A stretch of DNA of 62,008 nucleotides from Deltaproteobacteria bacterium (GTDB lineage Archaea > Thermoplasmatota > Poseidoniia > Poseidoniales > Poseidoniaceae), in contig JAOMAZ010000004.1 of NCBI GenBank assembly GCA_028344335.1, positions 1-62,008 of the forward strand, given 5' to 3'. The position numbers and the translations under genes are program-made. The notes below the pieces were generated by a model, which was not told the DNA's origin, made no database searches, and saw only the letters and a program-made list of their open reading frames with translations. This document shows, in pieces, positions 2,652-23,000 of the stretch (position 1 is the first letter of the stretch; each line of letters starts with the position of its first letter).

Positions 2652-5480
2652 TCAAGATTCATCCCAAACTCGATATCCGTCATCAGTTGAATACCAATGC
2701 GTTCCATCATTACCAAGATACCAATGAATACCTTGTTCATCGGTTTCAAGCCATTCACCATCTGGCAGTTCTTCCCAAGAACCTACGTGCTTTGGGTTTG
2801 CATGAGCCGCTACTGTAGGAACGAAGTTATCTGTCGTGAATGTTTGTGTAGTCTGTATCGTTTGCTGGTATATTTCATTATCCTCTTCAAACAAATCGTC
2901 CGAATCCGAATCTCTCTTTCTTCTAACGATTAATAATCCAACTAAAATAACTAAGATAAACAGCCCAACTGAGCCACCAATTATGATTACCTGGCTTGAG
3001 GCTGAGCCTGCAGCAGCAGCTTCTTTTTCTTCTTCAGTTGGGCAACCAAATCCATCACCGCCATATTCATTTGGGCATTCATCATCGCGATCCATTAACT
3101 CATCGCCATCAGAATCGTAATATATGTCGCATTCGCCAAAATCATATTCCATGTATACATAATCACTACTATTGTGCAAACTATTGTTCATTGGTGTGGA
3201 GTTTGAATCTAATGGATCGGAACGACATAAGGAATCCTCGGGAAAAGAGGTCTCCAATTGATCGGAAAAACCATCATTATCATCATCTTCATCTTCATTT
3301 ACTGATATGAGGTAATCCGGGAGTTGGATATTGTCAATTGTGTTTCCTTCACCTATAATCCTGCCATAAAATTTCAACTCATGACTACCTGCTGAAACGT
3401 TGATTGAAAGGTGTTCCAATGATGAAAAGCCTTCTGGGTTACAGCCATAATCAATAGCGTTTCCATCGAGATATATTGGGATGCATTGTTTATCGATTAA
3501 GAACGATGTAATATAGACGTCTAAAGTAACTACGCTGTCATTCCAAGAGGAGAAACCTATTGAAAAGTATCCTGTATCACTAGCCCACATTTTCTGACAT
3601 ATACTGTATTCGCCGTCAATAGGATTGTCTCCACAAATTACCCAAGGTGCGTAGTCTGGCATGCAAAAGCCAGCAAGGTCTTCGGCACAATGAACCCCCA
3701 CGCCATCATAGTCTCCACTTTCAAAATCAATTAACCTGCCACTTGTTATGCCTTCAACATAGTCTGCTAAACCATCTCCATCAGTATCAGTGTCTCTTAA
3801 GTGGTCAAACTCCCAAGCATCGTTTTCATTCATAACTCCATCATTATCGTGATCAGGGTCACTATTATCTCCGATTCCATCTCCATCTGTATCAAATGCT
3901 TCCGAGGAATCATCGGGGAATAGGTCGACATCATTACTAACTCCATCTCCATCATTGTCGATTAAATCATCACAACCATCTGGAACTTGATCTGAATCTA
4001 CATCGATTGCATCATCATAGCCTTCACACAGGTCTAAGAGATCGGCAATTCCATCCCCATCGGTATCATCCATACAGCCATCAGAATTATTATCAAACCC
4101 AGTAGAATCTTCATTAGGACACTTGTCTATAAGTTGTCCAAGACCGTCTCCATCATAATCTGGATAAGTTATCTGAGTATGTCTGATTTCAGTACTATTG
4201 TTAAAGTGTGAAATGTGAAGGTTACCGTCAGACCCAATCACCATCGATGAATCTCTGTGCGATTCTCCTATTGATTCAATTGTTACTAATTCCCAGGAGT
4301 TATTTCCGGAAGAAAATGCGTACTTGAGATCATTATTATGTTCATCATAATATGAGATGTGAATGTTGTTTTTTATATCTAAAATTATCGAGGGATGTAT
4401 ACCTGTGCCACTTTGCGAGTCAACAGTAGATAAGTTCCATATTGACCCATTCATTGAATATGCATACTTGAGATTGATGCTATTGTGGGAATAAGAATCC
4501 GAATAAGAAATATGAATGCCGCTGTCAGAATCAATTGCTATTGAGGGATAGGCGCCAGCATATGTATCAGTATCAATATGGCTATTATTCTCCCAAGTCT
4601 TGAATAACTTGTCTTGCGAAGCATACCATAACCCCTCATCATAACGGGTGTATTGGTTGTGGTATGCAACATGTATTGTATCATTGGAATCAATGGCAAT
4701 AGCGGTATCGAACACCCCTGCATGATCTTCATCTTGATCATTATCTCCGTGGCAGTCCATGATAACGTCGGTATTCCAATATCCAAAATTCTCAAAATTT
4801 AGATTCGTAGCATAATTCAAACTGTAAGAATACTCATAGTAAACTTGGCTGTAACTTTGGTCGGTGTATGAAATATGTACTTTATCATCGGAATCAACCG
4901 CAATAGAATTACTATATCCTGAGTTTTCAGCACCCACTGAAGTCACAACCCATGATGATACGAAATAGGCATGTCCGCTTGAGTTCGTGGTGTATTTCAG
5001 GTTTTGATCAAATTGATCAAAATAAGAAACATGCAAATTGTTATTCGAGTCGATTGCCATATCAAAATCACCAACTGGTCTTGATTCTGTGTTAACATAA
5101 GTCGTTTTCCATGAGCCCCCTATGTATGCGTCATTCCAGATGATATTTCCTTCGTCGAGGTAGGCAAAATAATTTGTTGCGTAGAGGAGCGCGGAAGACC
5201 CGTTTTCACGGAAGATAATATGTGTATAACCATTAGAATCGTGTGCAATTGCATTTTCAGTAGGAAATTCAGGATTCCCCCAGTACTTAACACCCGGATT
5301 TACACCAGTTGCATTAATTTGTTCTATGGTTTCAGACTCAATTGTATAATTTACTGGCCCATCCGAAGAGAAAAAGGTTTCACTAGAATTAAATTCGTAC
5401 CCATCATCATTTTGCATAAATGGTGTGAGCATTGATGACAATAAAATAATGACCATTATTGCCAGTACTTTATGGTGCAT
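2652..5480 (-). CDS. large single-pass surface protein with calcium (TSP3) repeats and a WW-like cytoplasmic tail
   Basis: This 942-residue exported protein begins with a signal peptide (MHHKVLAIMVIILLSSMLTP). Residues about 60-440 hold propeller-like repeats of the form IAIDSNxxxHVAYxD...LKYA. Residues about 445-600 hold thrombospondin type 3 repeats (DTDGDGIADLLD and similar), which bind calcium in other families. A jelly-roll-like segment (600-720) and more acidic repeats follow. A single membrane span (about 828-852) ends in RRKR. The 87-residue tail ends in an aromatic stretch (SWEELPDGEWLETDEQG, then HWY and GYRVW) that recalls a WW domain, which is only an inference. The gene is divergent from the related gene at 5662. 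Its TATA element lies 27 bases upstream of the ATG, predicting a leaderless mRNA. Confidence 0.9.
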   Translation of the reverse strand: MHHKVLAIMVIILLSSMLTPFMQNDDGYEFNSSETFFSSDGPVNYTIESETIEQINATGVNPGVKYWGNPEFPTENAIAHDSNGYTHIIFRENGSSALLYATNYFAYLDEGNIIWNDAYIGGSWKTTYVNTESRPVGDFDMAIDSNNNLHVSYFDQFDQNLKYTTNSSGHAYFVSSWVVTSVGAENSGYSNSIAVDSDDKVHISYTDQSYSQVYYEYSYSLNYATNLNFENFGYWNTDVIMDCHGDNDQDEDHAGVFDTAIAIDSNDTIHVAYHNQYTRYDEGLWYASQDKLFKTWENNSHIDTDTYAGAYPSIAIDSDSGIHISYSDSYSHNSINLKYAYSMNGSIWNLSTVDSQSGTGIHPSIILDIKNNIHISYYDEHNNDLKYAFSSGNNSWELVTIESIGESHRDSSMVIGSDGNLHISHFNNSTEIRHTQITYPDYDGDGLGQLIDKCPNEDSTGFDNNSDGCMDDTDGDGIADLLDLCEGYDDAIDVDSDQVPDGCDDLIDNDGDGVSNDVDLFPDDSSEAFDTDGDGIGDNSDPDHDNDGVMNENDAWEFDHLRDTDTDGDGLADYVEGITSGRLIDFESGDYDGVGVHCAEDLAGFCMPDYAPWVICGDNPIDGEYSICQKMWASDTGYFSIGFSSWNDSVVTLDVYITSFLIDKQCIPIYLDGNAIDYGCNPEGFSSLEHLSINVSAGSHELKFYGRIIGEGNTIDNIQLPDYLISVNEDEDDDNDGFSDQLETSFPEDSLCRSDPLDSNSTPMNNSLHNSSDYVYMEYDFGECDIYYDSDGDELMDRDDECPNEYGGDGFGCPTEEEKEAAAAGSASSQVIIIGGSVGLFILVILVGLLIVRRKRDSDSDDLFEEDNEIYQQTIQTTQTFTTDNFVPTVAAHANPKHVGSWEELPDGEWLETDEQGIHWYLGNDGTHWYSTDDGYRVWDES

Positions 5481-5661: not shown

Positions 5662-8600
5662 ATGAATCGTAGTCGAAAGGCATTGGCTTTGACAATTTTG
5701 ATGCTCATTGGAAGTTTGGCTCCAATACTGTCAGCAAGCCTTGAAAGTACCTCAGTAAAGATGTCTACATCGATTGGAAACATGCCGAAAAACATCGACG
5801 AGACGGATAACGTCGGGCAATACAGCTCATTGGCCTTGGACAGCGAATCCAATCCACACATCGCCTACTATGATGCTACGAATGGCAACTTGATGTACAC
5901 CAAATACAACGGATGGGAGTGGAACACTACCATAGTCGATTCGGATGATGATGTCGGCTCCCATGCTTCGCTGGCTCTCGATAAGGTGAACAATCCGCAT
6001 ATCTCCTATTACAATGCGACATCTGGTGACCTGAAGTATGCTCACTTCGATGGCTCAAATTGGAGCAACCTGACCATCGATGAAGATGGGGACGTCGGTT
6101 CTCACACCTCGATAGATGTCAGCAGTAATATGAACCCTCACATCTCCTATCGCGACGAAGACAATACCAACCTGAAGTATACCTACTACAATGGAAGCGC
6201 TTGGATCAACATGACTCTGGATGGAAACTGGGGCGGAATGGATAACGTTGGGACCTATACCTCGATTGCTCTCGATTCAAGCAATGGCCCGCATATTGCT
6301 TACTACAACTATACTGGTGGGGACCTGATGTACACGTACAATGATGGTAGTTCATGGTACAAGCAGGCTGCATATTCGACCAACAATGTCGGTCAACATG
6401 CCTCATTGGTTCTCGATTCAACAGACAATCCTCACTTTAGCCACTACAACATGCAGTTCCAGAATCTCCTGTACACTCACTACAACGGTACAGTATGGGC
6501 GACAGAAGCCGTTGATTCAACAGGTTTGGTTGGAGAATTCTGTTCCATCGATGTGGACTCGAATGACAATCCGCATATCGTCTATGTGGACAGAGACAAT
6601 GGAGGGCAGTTGAAGTATGCCGCATACGATGGAAACTGGACCTTGTCAGTCGTCGATGAGGAGGCCGAATACACATCCATTGTCATGGATTCGACCGACA
6701 GGCCTCATTTCTCATATTACGACCTTTCAGATGAGGACCTCAGATACCTTTCACAATCCGGAGCCAATGCCGTGGTAGTTTCCACTGACATGAGTTTTGA
6801 CAATGCATGGGGTGGACTTGGATTCAAACTGGACAGCCAAGGAATTCCTCACATCGCCTATCAGAATCACTCTGGAACCAATCACGTTTCATACGCCAAA
6901 CTCAATTCTACTGCTTCCGCTGCAGCAGGTACTGAGGTCTGGGACATAGAAACCATTGATACAGCCAATCAGGGATACTACGGTTCTTGGATTTCTCTCG
7001 ACCTAGATAGTCAAGACCGCCCGCATGTCTCCTACTTTGGCGGGGACAACTCTGATACTCTGCGTTACGCCTATCACAATGGAACAGGATGGGTGACAGA
7101 GACCGTAGACTCAAAATCAAACAGTGGAATAGAAAGGATCGGTTGGTACTCTGCAATTGTCATCGATTCAACCGACAAGCCACAGATTGCATATTCTTCA
7201 CAAGGAACAAGTAACATGAAATTTGCCATTCATGATGGTAGTGGTTGGCATCTTGACGATGTGATAAACAGTGGAAGCGGGGCGAAAAGAAATATCCAAT
7301 TTTCCCTCAGTGTTGCTGACGTACCCCATATCTGCTACAACTCTGGAGAAAATAGACTTGGTTATGCTACCTACAGTGGCTCTGGCTGGGTGGTAGACGA
7401 TGATATCACTTCAAGCGACCTGACCTATGCCAACAACCAGCGCGGAACATATTGCGATATTGAAGTTGACCAGTTTGGACGTCCACATATCTCCTTCGAT
7501 TACAACAGTAATGACAACCTCGGATACATGGTCCTGAATGGAAGTTCATGGGAGGGATGGCAAGTCTCCACCATGGGAGAAATCTTGTTCACCTCTCTTG
7601 AACTTGACAGTGCAGAGAGGCCATACATCTCATTCCAATCGAAAACAGGAGATGATGACCTCTACTTCACTTGGCTGGACAACTCAACCAACACTTGGAG
7701 AATCAGAGATTCTGGACTGCACCATACCAACACAATCTATGATTCCTCACAATGGGGCAGATACAATGTCCTCGTTCTAGATCAAAATGACAGTGTCCAC
7801 ATCGCATTCTATGACAATACCAAGACTGAGATTCTCTACTATACGGACAATTACAACCCCGCCATAGATACCGATGGTGATGGAATCCCAGATTCAGAAG
7901 ACAACTTCCCTTCAAATCCATCTGAAACTGCTGACTATGATGGAGATGGAAAAGGTGACAATGCCGACAATGATGATGATGATGACGGAGTGATCGACCT
8001 TGATGATTCATGTCAATTCGGAATCATTGGTGCTGGTGCGGACTTCGACGGTGATGGTTGCAAGGATTCAGAAGATGATGACGATGACAATGATGGCTAT
8101 CCTGATGTCTCGGATGCATGTTCCAAAGGAATGACCGGAATTGGATTCGACCTCGATGGTGATGGTTGTCAAGATGCTGAAGATTCAGATATCGATGGAG
8201 ATGGAACTCCCAATGTCGATGATGCATTCGAGCGCGACCCTACTGAAGACACTGACAGCGACGGCGATGGAGTGGGCGATAATGCCGATGCATTCGATAA
8301 TGATGCCAACGAAACCGTTGATTCAGACGGCGATGGAGTAGGTGATAATGCCGATGCATTCGATAATGATGCAAACGAAACCGTTGATTCAGACGGCGAT
8401 GGAGTCGGAGACAATGCCGATGCATTCGATGATGATGCAAACGAAACTACGGATTCAGATGGTGACGGAGTCGGAGATAATAGCGATATATTCCCCGACG
8501 ATGCCAATGAGAGCACTGATCTGGATGGAGACGGTATTGGAGACAATGCTGATCTCGACGTTGATGGTGACAATGTGTCAGATGTGGATGATGCATTTCC

Positions 8601-9693
8601 CAACGATCCGAATGAATGGAACGACAGTGATGGTGATGATGTTGGTGATAATGCAGACGCATTCGATAATGATGCCAACGAAACCGTTGATTCAGACGGT
8701 GATGGAGTAGGCGACAATGCAGACGTATTCGATGATGATGCAAACGAAAGCGCTGATTCAGACGGCGATGGAGTGGGCGACAATGCAGACGCATTCGATG
8801 ATGATGCAAATGAAACTACTGATTCTGATGGAGATGGAGTAGGAGACAATGCTGACCTGTTTGATGATGATGCAAATGAAAGCGCTGATTCTGACGGAGA
8901 TGGAGTTGGCGACAACTCAGATGCGTTTCCAAACGATGCCAATGAAACAGTAGATTCGGATGGAGATCAAGTAGGCGACAACTCAGATGCGTTTCCAAAC
9001 GATGCCAATGAAACAGTAGATTCGGATGGAGATGAAGTAGGCGACAATGCAGATGTATTCGATGATGATGCAAATGAAAGCGCTGATTCTGACGGAGATG
9101 GTGTCGGCGACAACTCAGATGCGTTTCCAAACGATGCCAATGAAACAGTCGATTCGGATGGAGATCAAGTAGGCGACAATGCCGACGCATTCGTTAATGA
9201 CCCCAATGAAGATACCGATTCTGATGGAGACGGGGTGGGCGATAATGCCGATGCCTACCCAGAAGATGCTGAACGTTCTACTGATGATGGAGGAGATTCT
9301 AATAATTCATCTGACGGTACTGGCTGGTCAGTAGTGCTCAAAGAGAGTGGACTGGATCCAAATCTAGTTGTGGGTGTGATAGGAATCATCATAGTAATGG
9401 TAGGAATGTTCTTCATGGCCTCATCAAGAAATATCAAGAAACTCAAGGCAGAACTTGAGGAAGCACATGTCGCCACTGACATGTGGGGTCGTCTAGACTA
9501 TGACAAGGATGGAGATATCTCCGACCTTGAATTCGAGGCTTACAAAGTGATTCGCGATGGTGGAAAAAAGGTAATCGAATTAGATAGTGAATCTGGTGAT
9601 ACAGAGGATGCAGAAGATGCAGAAAGTTCCGAAACTGAAGAAAGTATTGAGGAGATGGCGAACCAAGATGAAGATGGGTCATCAGAGAAATAA
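5662..9693 (+). CDS. large calcium-repeat surface protein with a cytoplasmic EF-hand
   Basis: This 1343-residue exported protein starts with a signal peptide (MNRSRKALALTILMLIGSLAP). Residues about 45-720 are propeller-like repeats of about 45 residues (SSLALDSESNPHIAYYDATNG, LMYT). Residues about 735-1210 are thrombospondin type 3 repeats, including some 14 near-identical 22-residue units (DSDGDGVGDNADAFDNDANE). One membrane span (about 1235-1256) is followed by a cytoplasmic tail with a canonical 12-residue EF-hand loop, DYDKDGDISDLE (9496-9531), and an acidic end. The ectodomain should bind many calcium ions and stiffen; the internal EF-hand suggests calcium sensing on the inner face, which is an inference. 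It shares N-terminal repeats with its divergent neighbour at 2652-5480, so they are probably paralogues. Confidence 0.92.
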   Translation: MNRSRKALALTILMLIGSLAPILSASLESTSVKMSTSIGNMPKNIDETDNVGQYSSLALDSESNPHIAYYDATNGNLMYTKYNGWEWNTTIVDSDDDVGSHASLALDKVNNPHISYYNATSGDLKYAHFDGSNWSNLTIDEDGDVGSHTSIDVSSNMNPHISYRDEDNTNLKYTYYNGSAWINMTLDGNWGGMDNVGTYTSIALDSSNGPHIAYYNYTGGDLMYTYNDGSSWYKQAAYSTNNVGQHASLVLDSTDNPHFSHYNMQFQNLLYTHYNGTVWATEAVDSTGLVGEFCSIDVDSNDNPHIVYVDRDNGGQLKYAAYDGNWTLSVVDEEAEYTSIVMDSTDRPHFSYYDLSDEDLRYLSQSGANAVVVSTDMSFDNAWGGLGFKLDSQGIPHIAYQNHSGTNHVSYAKLNSTASAAAGTEVWDIETIDTANQGYYGSWISLDLDSQDRPHVSYFGGDNSDTLRYAYHNGTGWVTETVDSKSNSGIERIGWYSAIVIDSTDKPQIAYSSQGTSNMKFAIHDGSGWHLDDVINSGSGAKRNIQFSLSVADVPHICYNSGENRLGYATYSGSGWVVDDDITSSDLTYANNQRGTYCDIEVDQFGRPHISFDYNSNDNLGYMVLNGSSWEGWQVSTMGEILFTSLELDSAERPYISFQSKTGDDDLYFTWLDNSTNTWRIRDSGLHHTNTIYDSSQWGRYNVLVLDQNDSVHIAFYDNTKTEILYYTDNYNPAIDTDGDGIPDSEDNFPSNPSETADYDGDGKGDNADNDDDDDGVIDLDDSCQFGIIGAGADFDGDGCKDSEDDDDDNDGYPDVSDACSKGMTGIGFDLDGDGCQDAEDSDIDGDGTPNVDDAFERDPTEDTDSDGDGVGDNADAFDNDANETVDSDGDGVGDNADAFDNDANETVDSDGDGVGDNADAFDDDANETTDSDGDGVGDNSDIFPDDANESTDLDGDGIGDNADLDVDGDNVSDVDDAFPNDPNEWNDSDGDDVGDNADAFDNDANETVDSDGDGVGDNADVFDDDANESADSDGDGVGDNADAFDDDANETTDSDGDGVGDNADLFDDDANESADSDGDGVGDNSDAFPNDANETVDSDGDQVGDNSDAFPNDANETVDSDGDEVGDNADVFDDDANESADSDGDGVGDNSDAFPNDANETVDSDGDQVGDNADAFVNDPNEDTDSDGDGVGDNADAYPEDAERSTDDGGDSNNSSDGTGWSVVLKESGLDPNLVVGVIGIIIVMVGMFFMASSRNIKKLKAELEEAHVATDMWGRLDYDKDGDISDLEFEAYKVIRDGGKKVIELDSESGDTEDAEDAESSETEESIEEMANQDEDGSSEK
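8254..9270 (+). repeat. 66-bp tandem repeat array encoding TSP3 calcium units
   Basis: About 14 in-frame units of 66 bp encode DSDGDGxGDNxDxFxxDANE. Neighbouring units at 8940-9150 are almost identical at DNA level, which points to recent duplication or gene conversion and a length that probably varies between strains. One unit (8520-8620) is degenerate. Confidence 0.9.
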
Positions 9694-11344: not shown

Positions 11345-12712
11345 TCAAGCGCTGAAATAATTAGAACGGGATTCTCTGAACATCACGGCCATCACCATGG
11401 CTATCAAAGTCAACAGAACTGATGGTGCAGGCATACTATCACCTTCCTTTTGTGGAATAGGATCGCCTTGTCTCAAAGTGAATGTGTCCCCTATCTCTCC
11501 ACTTTGTCTGACATAATCTACCTGCAATGATTCACCTGCAATATCAACACTCACCCTAACTATTCCATATGACTGTTCGCGATATGCTGACCACACCGGC
11601 TGCTCATCAGAATAATCGTACTCCCCTCTACCGGCAGTACCGACAATAAGGTGGATTGGAGCGTGCGCACCCGAGAAAACCTTGCCATCATCAGCGTCGC
11701 CACGCTGCTGGACCTCTGCATCGATGACCGGCCAGGTTCGTTCGTAGAAATGGTCATGCCCCCAAAAAACCAAATCAACTCCAGACTCGACGAAAAGTGC
11801 TTCCAAATCGGCACGCAATTCTGCATCTTCATCGTGCGTGGCATCATCGTGTGAAGTGTACATCGGCTTGTGCCCATAGACTATAATCCAAGGTACCTGC
11901 TCTCGATTCTGGATTGCATCGCCAAGGTCAGACTCCAGCCACTGATACTGTTCACTGCCGGCACTGTAATCATGCTCTGTCGAGAAACCAGTGAAATGAA
12001 CAGGACCGTAATCAAAGGAATGCCAGTAATCGGAATCTGAGGTCGAAGGAAACTCAAAACGTATATCGTAGGCCTCGAATCCATATCCCGGCTCGTTCTC
12101 ATGGTTACCGGGGACCATCATCCACGGCATGTTACTCATCGACCTCTGATTAGAATCCAGATAATCATCCCAAACAGACTGTTCACCATTAGCATAGGAG
12201 ATATCGCCAGAAAGTATGAGGAAGTCCGCATCGCTATCAACCACCATGTTGGTGGTCTCCATACCCTCTGAACTAAGACCGTGATCCCCGAAAGCAAGGA
12301 AGGTAAAATCTGACAAAACATCTCTGGTCTGGAAAGTGTAGACCTCTGACCAGGCACTTCCATCACCAACCCTGTAACTATAGTTGCTTGCGACTTCAAG
12401 ACCTATCATGACACCACTGTGGAATACCATGTCGTGGTCATAACAGAACTCTTCCCCCATGGCGCTGTTGTCAAGAGAGCCATCTAATCCCCATTCAACC
12501 TCGGAATCTGTCTGAGATTCTGTAGCCCATATTACCTGCATCTGACTTTCATCCTGGCTCAGTGAAATATGAATCTGCTCAGGAGAGTTACTTCCAGTCA
12601 GAGTACTAATCGGACAACTGAGAAGACTTCCAATCTGTGCATCCGCTACGAGAGTGAATGCCGGTATGCAAAGCAGGGCTGTGATTACCAGCAGAGCCAA
12701 GCGCCTGAGCAT
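11345..12712 (-). CDS. secreted purple-acid-phosphatase-like metallophosphoesterase
   Basis: The exported enzyme of about 455 residues begins with a signal peptide (MLRRLALLVITALLCIPAF), then a fibronectin-III-like domain typical of purple acid phosphatases (about 35-130), then a calcineurin-like metallophosphoesterase domain. Metal-binding motifs appear in order: GDHG, GDISYANG, GNHE, YGHKP and GHDHFYERT. It probably hydrolyses phosphate esters outside the cell, as in phosphorus scavenging. The C-terminus is MPAPSVLLTLIAMVMAVMF followed by basic residues, a Pro motif plus hydrophobic helix plus basic end that resembles archaeal sorting or anchoring signals. The ATG at 12712 is preferred over a GTG at 12733 because it begins the signal peptide cleanly and lies about 30 bases after a TATA box. 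The gene is followed closely by selO. Confidence 0.9.
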   Translation of the reverse strand: MLRRLALLVITALLCIPAFTLVADAQIGSLLSCPISTLTGSNSPEQIHISLSQDESQMQVIWATESQTDSEVEWGLDGSLDNSAMGEEFCYDHDMVFHSGVMIGLEVASNYSYRVGDGSAWSEVYTFQTRDVLSDFTFLAFGDHGLSSEGMETTNMVVDSDADFLILSGDISYANGEQSVWDDYLDSNQRSMSNMPWMMVPGNHENEPGYGFEAYDIRFEFPSTSDSDYWHSFDYGPVHFTGFSTEHDYSAGSEQYQWLESDLGDAIQNREQVPWIIVYGHKPMYTSHDDATHDEDAELRADLEALFVESGVDLVFWGHDHFYERTWPVIDAEVQQRGDADDGKVFSGAHAPIHLIVGTAGRGEYDYSDEQPVWSAYREQSYGIVRVSVDIAGESLQVDYVRQSGEIGDTFTLRQGDPIPQKEGDSMPAPSVLLTLIAMVMAVMFRESRSNYFSA

Positions 12713-12737
12713 AGACCCTCGAGGGCTTGTCACGCTA

Positions 12738-12746
12738 ATTATTTAC
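12738..12746 (-). promoter_or_regulatory. TATA box for the metallophosphoesterase gene
   Basis: GTAAATAAT on the minus strand is centred about 30 bases upstream of the ATG at 12712. It supports that start and an independent transcript starting between the MscS and phosphatase genes. Confidence 0.5.
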
Positions 12747-12776
12747 GGTAGATATTATTGAGATATACGAAATAAC

Positions 12777-14069
12777 TCAATCTTCGCCTGCCTCGAACAT
12801 CGAGATAATCCTCTCAAGTTCTCTAGAAGTCTCCTCAAGCAAGTTTCGCTCTGTTTTATCCAACTCGATATCCTTGAGACGATCCTTGATTTCTTCAAGT
12901 TCCTTTCGTGCAGATTCACGCTCTTCTCTGAGTTTCTTGTCTTCCTTAATCATCTGCATTCTCGCTAGACGCACACTAGCATCCTTCTTGCGAACATTGG
13001 TCGTGGACTTGTGTTCCTGCCCGATATTAAATCGAGTTGGGAATGGAATCCCAATTCCTTCTTCCCTGAAACGTTCATCGATGGATTTCAGCACCCAATC
13101 CTTGGCAACCCACTCATCACTGTAATCCTTGACCCATCCATACATCCTGAAAACCTTGGCGAAATCACCCAATTCGTTCAACAAGACTCTTGGATTTGGT
13201 TCGTCAATGACATATGGGCACTCGCGCATTAACTGCAGCAAGGTGTACTTAACGTGATCAATATCTTCTCCATATTCAACTCCAATATCTAGGACCAAAG
13301 AAATTCTGCGAGCAACTCCATCTCCGCCACCTCGGGCATGATTGACGACGATGGAATTAACCAGCGTGTTGTTTGGAATAACCACTAAAGTCTCCTCATA
13401 AGTCAGAATCTTAGTCGAAAGAATCCCAACTGAGGCAACAGACCCAGTCAAATTTTCAACCTCAATTCTATCTCCAACCTCAAATGGCTGGTCAAGAGAG
13501 AGCATGAATGAATTGACAATATTTCCAAGAGTCTGCTGCATAGCAAGACCGATGATTATAGAAAATACAGCCAATGAAGCAAATAGACCAAAGAGTTCGA
13601 TCCCCATCTCTGACAGTGCCAGATAGATTCCACCGAACCATACAATCCCCCTAAACATGAAAATTATCAGATAGTTACTACCTGAAACTGTTACACTTGA
13701 CTTGTTCCTGAATCGTTCTGAAATTGCAGGAACAATATGTCGAATAGAAACACTGGTAAGTGAAGTGGTCAAGATAATATAAAATACTGAAAAGAAGGGA
13801 GATAAACTAGCCACCCATTCTCCATCCTCAGGATATATCCAATTCAAGGAAAAGTGAATACCTCCAACAAAAATGAATGAGTACAAACGATTGGAGATTG
13901 GAGCGTGTAATTCATCATCCCATTCAGCGCTTGTCATCTTCACTACCTTGAGCCAAGGTTTGACAATTGTAAATCTGGATAGTAGGATGGCCATGAGGAT
14001 ACCTATCCCTGAAACAAGTAACTTGACAGAAGAATCCAAAGAATTTATCTGATCAATTATTCCTAACAT
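12777..14069 (-). CDS. MscS-family mechanosensitive ion channel
   Basis: The 430-residue protein has an N-terminal membrane region with about five helices and a classic MscS pore-lining and beta-domain signature: IIIGLAMQQTLGNIVNSFML, then LDQPFEVGDRIEVENLTGSV and VVIPNNTLVNSIVVNHA. A C-terminal alpha/beta domain follows, then a long charged coiled coil (about 345-425). It should open under membrane tension and release solutes. A ribosome-binding site AGGTGAT sits five bases before the ATG. Only 19 bases separate it from the stop of the giant RCC1 surface protein upstream, so the two are probably cotranscribed. The coiled-coil tail is longer than in bacterial MscS and may mediate cytoplasmic contacts. 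It is paralogous to the partial gene at 1-449. Confidence 0.94.
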   Translation of the reverse strand: MLGIIDQINSLDSSVKLLVSGIGILMAILLSRFTIVKPWLKVVKMTSAEWDDELHAPISNRLYSFIFVGGIHFSLNWIYPEDGEWVASLSPFFSVFYIILTTSLTSVSIRHIVPAISERFRNKSSVTVSGSNYLIIFMFRGIVWFGGIYLALSEMGIELFGLFASLAVFSIIIGLAMQQTLGNIVNSFMLSLDQPFEVGDRIEVENLTGSVASVGILSTKILTYEETLVVIPNNTLVNSIVVNHARGGGDGVARRISLVLDIGVEYGEDIDHVKYTLLQLMRECPYVIDEPNPRVLLNELGDFAKVFRMYGWVKDYSDEWVAKDWVLKSIDERFREEGIGIPFPTRFNIGQEHKSTTNVRKKDASVRLARMQMIKEDKKLREERESARKELEEIKDRLKDIELDKTERNLLEETSRELERIISMFEAGED

Positions 14070-14088: not shown

Positions 14089-17000
14089 TCAATCTTCTTT
14101 CAGGAAATCCTTAGCCTGTTCGACCCACTTATCTCTCTTAACTCTTCCAGAGAAGAACTCGATTGCAACATTCACTTGGTCTTCTATCTCAGGAGTCATG
14201 CCTGAAATCTGCTTGAAGGTGAAAATACCTAATGCATTCAATTTCTCTTCAAGGAATGGTCCTATTCCCTTTGTTCGTTGCAAATCATCCTTTTCTGCAG
14301 CAGTTGCTGTTCCGATAGTGTTGAAATCGATGAATTCAGACTTGGCTGCGACACGTGCTAATTCTGCCTCCTTCTTAGAAAGTCCTTCCATCTTGTCTTC
14401 TAGAGCGGCCATCTTCTCTGCAATCATCAACTCCATGTTTGCAAGTTTAGTGGCTGCCTCACTCTCTGCATTTTGACGAACTTCGTCTTCAACTGCCTTG
14501 ATACGCCTTTCTTCTTCCACTTTGGCTTCGACCTTCTTGGCTTTAGCTTCTGCTTCTGCCTTAGACTTCTCAATTGAAGTATCCTTTTTCCTTGAGATTT
14601 TACGTTTCTTTTTTCCGCCAGAAGAATCCTTGATAGAAACTGTCCATTGGAAGTATACCGTCGAACTGCCTACTCGCATTAGAGTGCTGTACTCATCGCC
14701 ATCATTGGAATCGGAGAGATCCTTAAATTCCAGTTTAAATGATATTGAGCCAGTGTCCATTTCATCATCATCATTGATCCAATCGTCGTCTTCTTCGACC
14801 AAAATATCTGTCATATCGAAACGCCCCTCATTCTCTTCAGTATACAGATCCATGAATCTGACAATAGTGTCAGGCGGTAGGTGGCTAATGGTAATGGATT
14901 CTCTACTAGATGCTGATTTACCAGGAGATAGACCTTCAATATCCTGAAGAAGGTAAGGGTCTATCTTGGTTCCAGAACCAGAAATAAAATCAGGAGATGA
15001 AAACGTGTGTTCAGGTTGCGGGCCTTTTTGCATCCCCATCATAACTAGCACTGAGTCACCACGCTCCCTCGCGAATAGAATCAATGGAACAAGAAGTAAC
15101 AACAGTAACAGGAAAATTACACATAGCCACCAATACTTTGTCACCAAAGATGTACTTTCAACTACTTCTTCACTCTTCTTGGTCGCATTACAAGATTCCA
15201 TGTTATCTGGAGTACTGGTTGCATTCAGAGGGTCAGTTCCACAAGCGATTTCATCGACATCCAACCATAGGTCACCATCATCGTCATCATCAGCATTATC
15301 GCCAATACCATCGGCATCAAAATCATAGGTCTCGTTGGCATCTTCCTCGAAAGCATCCATATCATTTGATACTCCGTCATTGTCGATATCATCATCGAAC
15401 AAGTCACATATCATATCAGAATCGAAATCATCAGGAACACTGGAGTTGGACTTGGAATCTGTCTCACAGAGCCCTTCCCACATATCCGTCCAAGAATCGT
15501 TGTCATCATCAGTGTCAGCATTATCTCCAATACCATCACCATCAGTATCGAGCCATTCAATTTCATCTTCTGGGAAATCATCTTGATGGTTGGCATATCC
15601 ATCACCATCCTTGTCATCATCCAGAGAGTCACAAATGAAATCATTGTCAATGTCTGTTGGAATACTGGAGTTATCAGTTGAATTGGTGCCACAAGAGGAT
15701 TCTATTCCATCAAGCCACCCATCACCATCGGTATCGGTCTCCAATCCATCGCAAACTCCGTTACCGTCGGCGTCGACTGGAACTTCATTTGCATCCTTCC
15801 AATCCGAACCACATTGTTGCTCCTCAGTATCGATGAAACCATCTCCATCATCATCGTCATCAACGTAGTCACATATCTGGTCATCATCAGTATCTACTGG
15901 CGTATCAGTTCCATTCAATGGATCCTTGCCACATAACAACTCAATTTGATCAGACCACCCATCAGCATCGTCATCACTATCATCTCGGTCAGGTAGACCA
16001 TCGAGGTCGGTATCCAACAGAACTGCAAGGTTCAGGGTGAATGTGGAACTGTATTTGTCATTACTCGCGGTGATAGTGTATGATTGAATAGAACTCAATT
16101 CTGTTGGGGTTCCGAATATTGAACCATTATCTCCACCATCCCTCGCAGGGCTGGTGCCACTGAATGTCAATCCAAGAGGCAGATATGGGTCGATAGACCA
16201 AGAAGTTACATCTCCTCCAACTGCGGTTGCATCAAACATCATCATCTCTAGATTGAGTGATATTTCAAGCGTTGAACTCTCATAAAATAACAGAACCGGT
16301 GCATCGTTGATATCATCATTTACATCACAAATTCCATCACCATCGCTATCGAATGGATGGTCATTTGCATCGGTGGAATTGGTTCCTCCACATGCAAGCT
16401 CATCTTCATCGCTCCAACCATCACCATCATCGTCATCATCTGACTCATCTGGTGAACCATCGCCATCAAGATCCAGCAATACTGTGATACTGATTGTAGT
16501 TGACGCACTAATTTCGGGTTCGATTCCTTGAGCAGATACTGAGTAGACTGTTTCCGAACTCAATTCGCTTGGAGTTCCCCAAATACTGCCATTTCCTTCT
16601 CCAAACTCCATTCCTACAGGAAGGTCTGGAGTGATTTCCCAAGTGATGGCTGCTGCTCCTCTCTGTGAGGGATAGATTGTATTGATAGGTGAATTGACTG
16701 CTATTCTATGTTCAGCATATGGATAGAAGATATACATCCCAGTTCCATTGACCTGAATAACAACGGTTGTGTCCACACTGCCGCCAGAATTATTTGCGAA
16801 TATCTTGTAAGTCGTGTTATCCTGATTGGCTACTGGGATTCCTGAAATGACTCCATATGCATCCAACAGCATTCCCACAGGCAAGACAGGGTCAATCTCC
16901 CAAGTCTCAACCATACCACCGGAATTGGATGGCTCAAGCGGAGTCATCGGCTCTTCTTTCTTCAGAGATATGTGGGCCTGAGTATAGGATATCACAGCAA

Positions 17001-20000
17001 CTGGTTCATTGATTGTCAGAGTCAATGTATGTTCATCGCAGACTCCCCAATTATTGCATGCCTTGATGGTGAAATCAGTAGAGGACAGATTCACATTTGG
17101 TGTGCCTGAAATATCCCCCGTTGCAGAATCAATCGACAATCCCGAGGGGAGAGCAGGGGCTGTTGTGAAATACGACAAGTATTGGTCATCAAGACCCGCT
17201 GTTGGAGAAATCGCTACCATTAGTGTTCCACGTTCAAGAACAGGAGACAGGTCTCCCGCGTCGTACGTCACATCAGGTGCTGGGTCAGCAACTGGGAATG
17301 TTACTTGGAAGGAGTGGGAGTTTCTCAATTCCGAGTTTCCATGATTCAATGTCACATTAATGGTGTATGTGACATTGGAAGAATTGGCTGAAGGTGTACC
17401 ATAGATTCTACCAGTGCTTGACTGGAACGTCAATCCAGTGGGCAGAGTTGGTGAAATCGTCCAACTTGTTGCATAATCCAAAACTGGATTGTTCATAGGA
17501 TAGAGGTCATTGTATTGACCTGCAATAGGAAAATCAATTTCTACTTCGTGGGCCTCCAAAATCTCTGGACTGAAGGTCCTGAAGATATATGCGTAGCTGC
17601 TGGGCATTACTTGGGTATTGGAAGTCATGTATTCCGTGGTTGTAGTATATCCGCCCCAATATTGACCGTTTGATTCCAAGACATAGAATGGAGCGCCATA
17701 GGAGTCCAACCCGAAATCATACAGGTAACAGGCGGAAGAGCCACCAGATGTCGCAGTTTGATATACGATATTCCCATCAATGTCAAATGCTATTGCCCTG
17801 AAATATTGGGCATTCGTAGAATCTTCTGTATCCATCATTAGATGTACCACATCATCACTATCTGATACTGAAAACATTCTGCTATCGCTACCATAATCTC
17901 GAATACCGAAATCATCCTCGAAATAAGTCCACAACTTGTTTCCAGAATTATCAAGGGCAACAGCAGCAAACCAAGCATCTCCAACCGGTTCAATCGATTC
18001 GTCTCCCATCAGATTCAAAGTACCGATGGAATTGTCTGGATATCCATCGCTGAATGCAACAAGCATACTACCATCACTGAAACTACTGATTGTTGGGGTA
18101 GCATACAAGTGAGATTCTGAAGCAGTAACATTCTGCACCCAAACCCACGAACCTCCTGCATCAAGATGTGCCACAACCGATTGATAGCCATTGTTGGCAT
18201 CATTCCGGGACAACTCCTGATTACCAAAGAGCATAGCATACCGACCTCTAAAAGTCAATGTTGCAGAACCATCAGGATGTGAAGTAACCTCAACATCATA
18301 ATCGTATATATTCTCGTTGGATGTATCATTTGAACGGGAACTTGCAACCCATGCACCAGTTCCATCAGGGTTCAACCGAGCGACATAAGGAAGAGAATAA
18401 CTAGAGGTTTCGAGGTCAGTGAAATCAACCCCTGCAAAATCAATAGTTTTTGTTGCAGTGGTATTCTTGACTGTTCCGCCAATTGTGACATTGCCATTGG
18501 AAGAATCAATTTCAATATTCGACGACAGAACATGTCCTCCGCTATTTGCGGCAGTTGCATTGGAATTGCTGACCCACTGAGGGGAACCTAATGAATCGTA
18601 CTTTATCACTACAGAATCGTAATAATTGTTCGAGGTGAAATCGAAAGAATCACTATTCCTGAAATCAAAAGTACATGATGGAGAATAACCCCATGCAAGG
18701 TAGTGTGCCAACAAGAATACTGAACCTGTATCAGAGACTTGGAGATCTTGAGCGTAGATGTCACACGTATCGAACACCTCAACCCATTCCCAATCTCCAG
18801 AAGTTCCGTTCCTCTTTGCAAGATATGCATCATTATTCCTTTGCATTGAAGGTGTGGACAATGGAGAGAATGTTTCAGCACCAGTTGCGACACCAAATAC
18901 ATACATCGAACCGTCTGGAGCAAATGCAATCTTGTTGCTTCTAATTGCATTAGTACCGTAGGAATAGGAGGAAGTTGTCCAAGGTCCATATTCATATCCA
19001 GTCAGCAAAGGTATCCCTTCTTGGACTCTTAGTGTGAATACCTTCTGCCAATTATCACCAGATGAAGTAGTAGAGATTGTGTATGTCGTTCCAGCGACAT
19101 CAGCTTGATCGAATGTTCCACTAATCACTCCTGTGGAAGAATCCATCTGTACTCCAGCGGGTAGTGCAGGATTGATAGAGACCGAATCTGGCCAGAGACC
19201 TGAGTATATCGGCACTACTGAATTGGAACTACCGTTCTCCCAAACCAAATTTGAATAATTCAATGATGCCGTATCAAGAGCATCGCAGGTTCCATCACCA
19301 TCTGCATCTGGAGGAGTAACACTCGCATCCTTTGAAGGGTCATCGAAATAGCCCTTGTAATGGATATATGCACCTACAGCACTAACACTGTTTGATGAAA
19401 AAATGAACACATCACCCTGTTCATCAAATGTCATGGAGAGCCCATACGCATAACTTGCGGACCAACTGGTCTCCTCTCTGACCAACTCAGTCCTCATTGA
19501 TGAGCCATCCATGTATGTATGATACAAGGAAGCATTTGTGAAATCGTTCCAGATGATATGTGGATTATCATCACCATCAAACTTCATCTCCATCCCTTTG
19601 TTATTGGTATCTGGAATTGAACTGCTCCATACCGGATTCCATGAGCTAGTCCGTGAAAACATTCGAATGAATCCGGCATCGAGGAATGTGAAATAAGGCA
19701 CATTTGTGGAATTGACCCTAAGTTGAGCCTCTTTGTAATACACATCATTGCTGCCAGACCAGATAGTCTCTCCGGAACTCCATGAGCCGGAATCATATTT
19801 CCAATAGGTGTAACTGCCAGTTTCCAGAGCCACCAGATGGATGGCACCAGTATCATCGATTGCAATCTGCGTGTATTGAACTGAAACTCCAGTAGGATAA
19901 TTCAGTGTTCCAGCCTGATCTGTAATCGTATCATAATAATCTAATTCATAAGAATCTGTGGCATAGTATGTCCCGTTGGGAGAAAATGCAACATCTGTTG

Positions 20001-23000
20001 GTTGCTGGTACCAACTGCCAGTTTCCAACTGTTGTTGAGACCATTGTGTATTCAATTGTGCATCCATCTCATACGTATCTCTGCTCAATGTCAGATAATC
20101 TAATCCCCCATGATTGGTTACTTGTGGATACCTGTAATTTGCACCAGGTCCAACGTTTTGACTGCTTCCATAGGTCCCCCCATATCTCATAGTTTCACCG
20201 ACAGAATCAGGAACTGCGTTCTGATAGGTCCATACTCTGGCATATCCATTTGATGCACCATCAGAGGCGATGACTCTTAGCCCATATTCATCATCGAACC
20301 AGATGGCGCTACCATAATCAGGTCTCATGTAATAGTTTCCTGATGTGCTAGACATGGCATTGAATGAAGAGTATCCATACATGGGTTCACACTGCCCCTC
20401 GACGATATCCGAAAACGTGTCATTATCATCATCAGTATCCAAGTAATCACAAGTCAAATCCGAATCAAAATCGCTGGGTGTATCTGTATCGAGCAATGGA
20501 TTGGTGGCGCATGCAACCTCATCAGTATCATTCCAGTTGTCGTCATCATCGTCAAGGTCTTCGATGAGAGTTGTCGAACAAGAGTTCACGATATCGTTTG
20601 GCATCCCATCGCCATCAGTATCAGTATCTGCACATTCATCCAATGGGAAATCATCATCAGCATCGATTGAACCATCATCATCATCATCAGTATCCCAGAG
20701 ATCTATCGTTCCATCAGAATCTGTATCTTCTGCCCTAAGCCAAAGTTCTGTAGCCGGTAAGTCATCTCCCATCTCTCCAGTCTGGTCTCCTCTTTGAGTA
20801 GTGTCTTCATGTCCAAGGTTTCCAAGTCCATTGTAGCCCCAACACCTAACCTGCCCATCTTCACGAATCGCGCAAGATGAATAGGCCCCCAATGCCACGG
20901 ATTCAACATAGTCTCCAATATCAGCCACCATCAGATTGTCTCCCATCTCATTGACTCCATCACCGATTTGCGCAGTACTTCCAATACCCAATTGCCCATG
21001 AGATCCACTGCCCCAGCAACGCAACAGTTCATCATCACCAATAGCACATGTGTGGATGTAAGTACCCTGATTTTGATACCAATACGAAGAAGTATGACCT
21101 GTCGAAGATGTTTGAACATCCAAAGCGGCCCTATCCGTCCCAATGTCGACATTGCTTGTTCCAGGATTTGAAACACTGGAACTACTACCATATCCCAATC
21201 GGCCATATGAACCATAGCCCCAACAAGCAATGTTTCCACTATCTAGTAGAGCACAACTGTAAGCCTGACCCGCCGAAATCTTGACCGGAGTTCTACCATC
21301 TGCCAAGTTCAAGAAGGACATCTTGTTATCAGAAACTGCTGTGTTGTCACCCATATCGGTGGTATTTCCCAGTCCAAGTTGATATTGAGAATTATCTCCC
21401 CAACACTTGGCTGCCCCATTCTCAAGAATTGCACAACTATGTCCAACACTGGCAGAGACATCTACTGCCTTGTAATCACCCAACAAGACTGTAGTGGGGG
21501 CTAGATTAGTACCCGTAGAACCGTCACCTTGAATTCCTTGATCTCCATAACCCCAACACTTGACCTCTCCAGTGTCAAGCAAAGCGCAGGTGTGGTATTG
21601 CCCTGCTGCAACCTTCACTGCATTACCGCCAAGGTTAACTGCTGGCATCAGATCTCCTAATTCAGCAGTAGAATCACCGATTTGAGTGGTGTTTCCGAGT
21701 CCCAATTGATATTCGGAATTTCTTCCCCAACACTTCACTGAAGCATCATTCAATACTGCACATGCGTGGAAATTTCCTGCACTGATTTGAACTGCAGATT
21801 TATTGGCGCCAAAATTAACGTACGCGAGGTTCTCTCCCATTTCATTCGCCTGATCACCAATCCGATTGTTGGGAGAAGAGGTACTTCCGATACCTAACTG
21901 ACCATTTGAATTATCACCCCAACATTTGACAAGACCTTGGTTTGAACGTGCACAGTAGAAGCTTGTTCCGGCTCCAATCTCAACAGGCCTGCTCAACAAT
22001 CGTGAAACTGATGAAGATGAATCGGGAGTTAAGATATCAGTTCCACTTGATTCAACCGCTGAATCAGCAGCAGGTGCGCTAAGGTCGGTTGTGGAACCAT
22101 ATCCCATACGGCCATCTCCACCTTCTCCCCAACACATGATCTTACGAGAATCATCAGAGGTCTTGAACAGGGCACAGGAAGTTGTACTGGACTCGGAAAC
22201 CGCCACCTCCAGTGGAGTATATCCTGCAGGAACCGAAACTACAACAGGTGTAGACGCCATGGAAGATGCTGTTCCTCCATCTCCTAATTCTCCAGATACC
22301 TCGGTACCCCAGCATTCAATTGCCGAGGCCACGACTATGCAGGCGTGTTCATTGCCTACTGAAACCGAGTAGTGCTTGTCTCCTGAAGAACCAGCATCCA
22401 CTCTTGTCCCCTTGATGGAAGAAGTGGAATTACCCAGAATCTTGTCATCATATCCTTGACCCCAACATGCAGTTTCCAGACTTGATGATAGAATCGCACA
22501 AGTTGCATCAGCACCAGCACTTATTCCAGAAAAGGTCCTTCCGTCCCAATCACTCGAGTAATGGCTACCTGTTGCAGAAAGGTCAACTTTCACAGGAGCG
22601 CTGCTATTTGTGGAAGTGGTGGAGGCATTTCCTAGAACCATCTCGGATGAGCCGCCATTGTACCCCCAGCAATATACATCTCCGATGGTATTCAGTGCAC
22701 AGGAATGTCTGTCTCCAGTTGCTACATCTTCAATCACTCCTACTGAGGCAGGAAGGATAACTTCTGAAGGGCTTGCCGAAGTTCCACCTGAAATCAATTC
22801 TGTACTCGAATTAATGCGAATGTCGTCAAGATAAACCTTGTTTTGTCCGCCGGCTGAAGAAGACCTGACCGAGCTCCACTTGAAAGTATGTGAGCCTGCA
22901 TCCAAATCGAAAGATACTGATTGGAATGTAGAAGCCGCTATACCGGACCATGAATTCTGCAATACATCATCGATATAGAATCTGAGATAATGGTTGGTTG

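Follow-up and report, generated by a model that had tools for sequence, protein, structure and literature searches.

A giant surface protein of marine group II archaea, 4073 residues long, ends in a helix-hairpin-helix (HHH) module that recurs at the C-termini of surface, ribosomal, respiratory and membrane-anchored proteins of archaea and bacteria, and is exchanged between these carriers. It is likely a C-terminal docking tag, and the reading we prefer, to which we give a probability of roughly 45%, is that this tag works in the cytoplasm and tethers the surface protein, together with its membrane patch, to nucleoid DNA through the GIGP hairpin.

The giant surface protein and its terminal module

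The window, by which we mean the whole stretch of 62,008 nucleotides analysed, carries on its minus strand an ORF with an ATG start (P0001, 14089–26310) that encodes the 4073-residue protein. As read from its sequence, this is a single-pass surface protein with a signal peptide, extracellular repeats and one transmembrane helix near the C-terminus. A hydropathy scan places the putative signal peptide in an N-terminal hydrophobic segment at residues 11–25 (26236–26280, minus strand, as are all features of the protein below) and the transmembrane helix at residues 3726–3747 (15070–15135), whose mean hydropathy is 3.35 vs. 1.63 for the next best segment and which is followed immediately, on the inner side, by the arginines of an RER triplet. 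Pfam detects five RCC1-propeller stretches, the best at residues 1502–1838 (20797–21807; WD40_RLD, 2.5e-150), 17 RCC1_2 stretches, and six Ig-like He_PIG stretches (Pfam: PF05345), the best at residues 2941–3004 (17299–17490; 1.1e-31). The C-terminal HHH module is predicted to be cytoplasmic.

For the tail, AlphaFold (26 sequences; mean pLDDT 77.7, pTM 0.42) predicts a β-sandwich, a 60-residue helix and the module. The juxtamembrane sandwich of ~130 residues (3763–3895; 14626–15024), which carries a GSGTKIDPYLL motif, is conserved in other tails; blastp finds it in 43 of 112 further carrier ORFs, a set without the window's own copy (L001) but with duplicates between two genome collections included. 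In a Foldseek search with the whole tail, the sandwich matches generic Ig-like sandwiches (best E-value 5.9e-4), which defines a fold class only. A long helix or coiled coil follows at residues 3910–3993 (14332–14583), variable in length among relatives and closing with the conserved lead-in helix ELARVAAKSEF (14332–14379), the first helix of the module model. The initial annotation had put this coiled coil directly inside the membrane: it does precede the module on the inner side, but the sandwich, a domain that annotation did not describe, intervenes. When tails are aligned, the longest runs of invariant columns fall within the module, which is also present in the nearest relative (L031; 84% identity over the module, with a spacer helix longer than in the window), as the orthologue check proposed earlier called for. 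Some modules (L092, L096, L101, L107 and L155) carry a β-rich insert of ~45–65 residues, with VKKGATSIEVADAS-like letters, at the junction of the lead-in helix and the HHH part.

The module itself spans residues 4007–4073 (14092–14292), where the motifs DDLQRTKGIGPFLEEKLNAL and KRDKWVEQAKDFL had been correctly read and placed. Its hairpin, KGIGP (14257–14271), keeps GxG in all 54 surface_beta module copies, and the R, R, D, W and Q of its GRVKRDKWVEQA motif (14113–14148) are invariant in 59 aligned modules; this alignment, picked from matches to the query and hence biased to similar sequences, has 22 invariant columns, including G-x-G-P, N-A-L-G-I, R, R-D-x-W and Q. The last 80 residues match the NCBIfam models of NuoE (NF009040, 7.7e-19), S2 (NF008966, 1.2e-13), L21 (NF008915, 1.3e-13; NF008916, 2.9e-13) and PhaH (NF045508, 3.8e-12), as well as the PDB chains 9wqv_a (9.2e-12) and 8yy9_O (1.7e-11), all confined to the add-on ends of the matched proteins. 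These matches to HHH-bearing families, far beyond chance, bear out the initial annotation on two points, the HHH end of the protein and the relationship of this end to the add-on known from L21 and from NADH dehydrogenase subunits. HHH-extended NuoE, L21 and S2 share the same C-terminal module on carriers that are not surface proteins. The whole-protein cut-offs are not reached, either for PhaH (46.9–55.4 of 250 bits, equivalog, over the module and part of the helix only) or for NuoE (68.7–73.6 of 514 bits, over the C-terminal add-on region only). Pfam sees the module weakly, with Cdd1 (0.0032) and HHH_5 (0.041) both below cut-off; for HHH_5 (Pfam: PF14520), which has the same hairpin and to which the window's module adds a conserved RxxRDxWxxQA helix, that module scores 14.8 bits against a curated cut-off of 27, which relatives pass (L089 with 38.9 bits; Bacteroidota, e.g., with 38.2 bits).

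The AlphaFold model of the module (pLDDT 91.9) predicts the two helices and GxG hairpin of the helix-hairpin-helix fold. Foldseek with the module alone returned low-probability hits and no PDB match at E ≤ 0.001. VIA-align, which covered Foldseek's candidates only and in which a Z under 8 may mean merely a common arrangement, matched it to HhH chains of Pol theta helicase (Z 6.2), NusA (6.0 and 5.8), the RadA N-domain (5.3), Pol iota (4.9) and MsDpo4 with DNA (4.7). With a wider profile (A4, 18 rows), the best matches are protein-O and a 41-kDa complex-I-type chain at ~1e-26, followed more weakly by RadA (1.4e-4) and Pol beta (fingers, 7e-4), PolIV, eL32 and NusA (7e-4 to 6e-3). Because of these fold and profile neighbours, we regard the module as an HhH domain marked by a specific W-xx-QA helix, of a fold that serves DNA binders and protein binders alike. 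An N-terminal stretch of eL32 (PDB: 1s72_Y, 9l94_Q) weakly matches the module profile (E 0.003–0.006) and is perhaps another ribosomal HHH extension.

Carriers in archaea and bacteria

The module had been called unexpected on such a protein; it is no isolated oddity, as the protein's last 80 residues find matches in 101 of the 193 genomes of its order, the marine group II archaea (E ≤ 0.001), and the same module does stand at the ends of other single-pass surface proteins, where it had been suggested to look. Among order genomes at least 90% complete, 21 of 34 match; 92 of the 193 have no module match, e.g., G004 (94% complete). In a phylum-wide sample, 42 of 292 genomes match, 40 of them within the window's class and two outside it, weakly (1.5e-7 and 9.1e-9). 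Nearly all named matching contigs are marine group II (Poseidoniales, Thalassarchaeaceae) or group III MAGs, the exceptions being a Bacteroidetes MAG (L091) and a 'Rhodobiaceae' MAG (L050, L097), which looks mislabelled given its archaeal-type genes. By this distribution, the window most probably comes from a marine group II archaeon. In the window's own genome (57% complete), a profile search at E ≤ 10 finds no second module copy; a NuoE-model match elsewhere in that genome (C55, 3.6e-5) falls mostly in the linker part of the model. Viral origin or spread was considered and rejected: there is no match in 50,697 phage records and no PHROG match to the module, and none of 64 pattern matches in viral contigs is a relative.

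The 101 distinct archaeal carriers, the window's included, comprise 43 surface proteins, 17 NuoI, 6 eL21, 4 NuoJ-like, 3 HEAT-repeat and 8 soluble coiled-coil proteins, 1 multi-TM protein with EF-hands and a SAP domain, and 19 unclassified, mostly cut by contig ends; classes were assigned by short motifs and hand labels, and representatives checked by Pfam or NCBIfam (L21e, 4.3e-31; SAP, 2.2e-9; NuoI, 3.6e-18, and NuoJ-like, PF00499, 1.1e-5, the last two below their cut-offs). Among the surface carriers, 36 have the β-sandwich and 7 have RCC1 propellers with no sandwich detected, and an upstream transmembrane helix is found in 35/36 and 7/7, respectively. The module occurs once in 74 archaeal carriers, twice in 21 and three times in 6, and lies within 10 residues of the C-terminus in 93 of the 101; the exceptions mostly have an acidic tail of ~30 residues after it, and the SAP carrier has 48 residues there. 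In the latter (L103:7826–10378), the multi-TM part and EF-hands are followed by the HHH module and then the C-terminal SAP domain. The soluble long coiled-coil proteins (L147–L152, L156 and L157) end in GxD copies, with GxG in none of nine.

eL21 itself is found in 179 of the 193 order genomes, with an unfused frame of 125 residues in the window's own genome. Among the matches listed, frames of fused length (225–244 residues) occur in at least 4 genomes of one genus, 4 other genomes of which have frames of 123–133 residues, and none of the listed fusions lies outside that genus. The NuoI model (at 1e-10) finds 62 of 186 genomes, mostly with frames of ~320–360 residues, too short for the fusion, and misses the fused form. 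Both the eL21 fusion, present in 4 of the 8 genomes of its genus among the matches listed, and the 92 order genomes without a match would suit a neutral, promiscuous C-terminal fusion without selected function. The strong conservation across 59 modules and many carriers and the narrow choice of carriers speak against such a fusion, which we consider highly improbable.

In alphaproteobacterial plasmid records, the module is found on NuoE, on the product of a gene between nuoF and nuoG, on uS2 and on a two-module transmembrane protein. For Bacteroidota, we sampled the class and phylum of G404, the source genome of L091, and at phylum level the A4 profile finds matches at 1e-6 in 50 of 296 genomes. 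From 41 of these 50, we classified 80 distinct carriers, leaving out 10 rows with E-values above 1e-9, among them the sole rows of the other 9 genomes, and some G404 matches seen earlier; identities come from Pfam matches of representatives. They comprise 43 proteins with N-terminal membrane anchors (40 at a hydropathy threshold of 1.7, 42 after it was relaxed to 1.5, and one further, cut anchor that was inferred), 24 ribosomal proteins (12 bL21, 4 uS2, 3 bL27, 2 bL17, 2 bS1 and 1 uL16), 10 NrfD/ActC-like proteins of alternative-complex-III type, 2 glycogen-binding proteins (AMPK1_CBM) and 1 other without a Pfam match. Ribosomal proteins, which make up ~1.5% of bacterial genes, are here 24 of the 80. 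In 77 of the 80, the module lies within 20 residues of the C-terminus. A ribosomal carrier is present in every one of the 10 genomes that have an ActC-like one, and of the 21 genomes that have a ribosomal carrier, 13 have a membrane-anchored one too. A smaller scan (A2; class of G404, 8 of 149 genomes) also yielded ActD, S16 and L20 carriers. The two fusions of AMPK1_CBM with the module (L190 and L192; 1.3e-10 and 6.2e-6) are a possible glycogen counterpart of PhaH.

A comparison of the archaeal modules with the second bacterial subtype by hhalign (98.3%, E 2e-14) supports their homology. In a quick tree of 144 modules, the marine-archaeal and Bacteroidota TM-coil modules lie on one side (SH-aLRT 88), and the other bacterial modules and those of other Thermoplasmatota on the opposite side; eL21 modules cluster (91), and NuoJ-like ones stand among surface-protein copies (93 and 89). 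Because it has 70 columns and leaves 77 of 141 inner branches open, we rely on it only for the placement of NuoI, NuoJ-like and eL21 modules, which appear to fall among surface-protein modules. This fits, weakly, a movement of modules from gene to gene within archaea, as well as separate fusion events for eL21 and the bacterial bL21. Despite the shared number, eL21 and bL21 are unrelated proteins.

Candidate functions of the module

Since it is found on ribosomal proteins and on cytoplasmic-side complex I subunits, the module must have its site of action in the cytoplasm, in agreement with the topology predicted for the surface protein. We infer tethering as its function, with a mechanism in which the signal peptide would put the RCC1/Ig/TSP3-like part outside, one helix would traverse the membrane, the β-sandwich and helical spacer would keep the HHH module off the membrane, and the module would grip a partner in the cytoplasm that is shared among carriers. 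The most likely partner is nucleoid DNA, to which the GIGP hairpin would bind irrespective of sequence. A link to the chromosome would thereby hold the surface protein and its membrane patch in place, just as PHB granules are said to be anchored by PhaH. Carriers that are large or membrane-bound assemblies, in archaea and Bacteroidota alike, favour such a tether.

PhaH, a Caulobacter phasin, is a soluble granule protein without transmembrane helix or propellers, unlike the window's protein, with which it shares a homologous C-terminal HHH module. According to a review, it tethers a large body, as proposed here: its C-terminal end is reported to bind DNA nonspecifically via the HHH domain, and PHB granules are spread along the nucleoid (PMC13052382). 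Among the carriers, it is the one with a reported function. Because its HHH end is reported to bind DNA, nucleoid DNA is, by analogy, the leading candidate for the partner, and the homology of PhaH (3.8e-12) and the fold and profile neighbours RadA, Pol iota, MsDpo4 with DNA and Pol beta fingers point the same way. The SAP domain at the end of the L103 carrier, a DNA-binding motif, does so too. COG3743 (H3TH) is probably the HHH module of this analysis. A study of the PHA synthase PhaC2 of Halomonas describes a COG3743 'H3TH' hit in the position that a histone-H1-like DNA-binding domain takes in a relative (PMC8686332).

Other observations weigh against DNA. The module's net charge is negative in most classes (mean -1.5 in surface_beta and -5.3 in NuoI), unlike that of usual nonspecific DNA binders, which counts mildly, not decisively, against nucleic-acid binding; an equally good fit to the fold comes from the protein-binding AR domains of NusA (Z 6.0 and 5.8), and Foldseek alone gave no significant PDB match. 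The second hairpin glycine is lost in all nine soluble coiled-coil copies, nine of which keep the W and eight the Q, so that the domain can presumably act without a DNA-binding hairpin. Because the archaeal modules are net acidic and this one paralog group lacks the glycine, a protein partner is nearly as likely: HHH modules may bind each other or one shared protein, gathering ribosomes, respiratory complexes and surface proteins at the membrane with no DNA involved. NusA and its AR2 domain among the best fold matches, the co-occurrence of carriers, as in the ten ActC-like Bacteroidota genomes, and the tandem copies in 27 of the 101 archaeal carriers, which fit avidity, also suit protein docking. 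The precedent of PhaH, the retention of GxG in every class except the coiled-coil one, the patchy distribution (e.g., G004) and the single copy in the window's own genome, where the module would have no other copy to dock to, argue against it, and we hold protein docking to be a possible reading, short of an even chance.

The tail might also bind RNA or ribosomes, recruiting mRNA or ribosomes so that translation of the giant protein takes place where it is inserted. Ribosomal-protein carriers exist and a stretch of haloarchaeal eL32 resembles the module weakly (E 0.003), but storage-granule and photosynthetic carriers have no need of such binding, and no RNA-binding precedent was found; we consider this improbable.

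The photosynthetic carrier, protein-O of the Dinoroseobacter shibae RC-LH1 complex (8yy9_O), is, like the window's protein, a membrane protein with the module C-terminal on a flexible link, but has two N-terminal transmembrane helices within that complex and no ectodomain (PMC12079452). There, the module is invisible in the map, the 'physiological functions' of protein-O and of the NuoE add-on are called 'obscure', and the add-on is already known in Alphaproteobacteria (PMC12079452). Our literature search, with most subscription papers outside its scope, found nothing on the module in archaeal surface proteins or ribosomal proteins, and no account that treats it as one tag common to ribosomes, respiratory complexes and granules. 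Together, the carriers read as a short list of the cell's largest assemblies in three deep lineages, and here also the giant surface proteins of ocean archaea that are abundant and uncultured. What was an annotation curiosity (an HHH-tailed 'L21' or 'NADH dehydrogenase subunit E') thereby turns into a hypothesis, open to testing, on the positioning of ribosomes, respiratory complexes and surface proteins in prokaryotes. A wider and, to us, doubtful proposal is that the HHH module is a cross-domain 'assembly tag', repeatedly fused by archaea and bacteria to ribosomal, respiratory, photosynthetic, storage-granule, membrane-anchor and giant surface proteins, which it would keep in place at the nucleoid or at a single common scaffold. 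If so, marine-archaeal surface proteins would be physically wired to the chromosome.

Neighbouring genes

Two further surface proteins are encoded nearby. One, of 942 residues (2652–5480, minus strand), has a post-TM tail that ends, by eye, in a tryptophan-rich WW-like repeat, with no Pfam match; the other, of 1343 residues (5662–9693, plus strand), has a C-terminal transmembrane helix and a cytoplasmic tail with, by eye, an EF-hand-like loop (DYDKDGDISDLEF) and no Pfam match at 1e-3. An MscS-type channel gene (12777–14069, minus strand; Pfam MS_channel_2nd, 2.1e-18) starts 19 bases downstream of the giant ORF and, with a purple-acid-phosphatase gene, follows it on the same strand (11345–14069), an order kept in L031.
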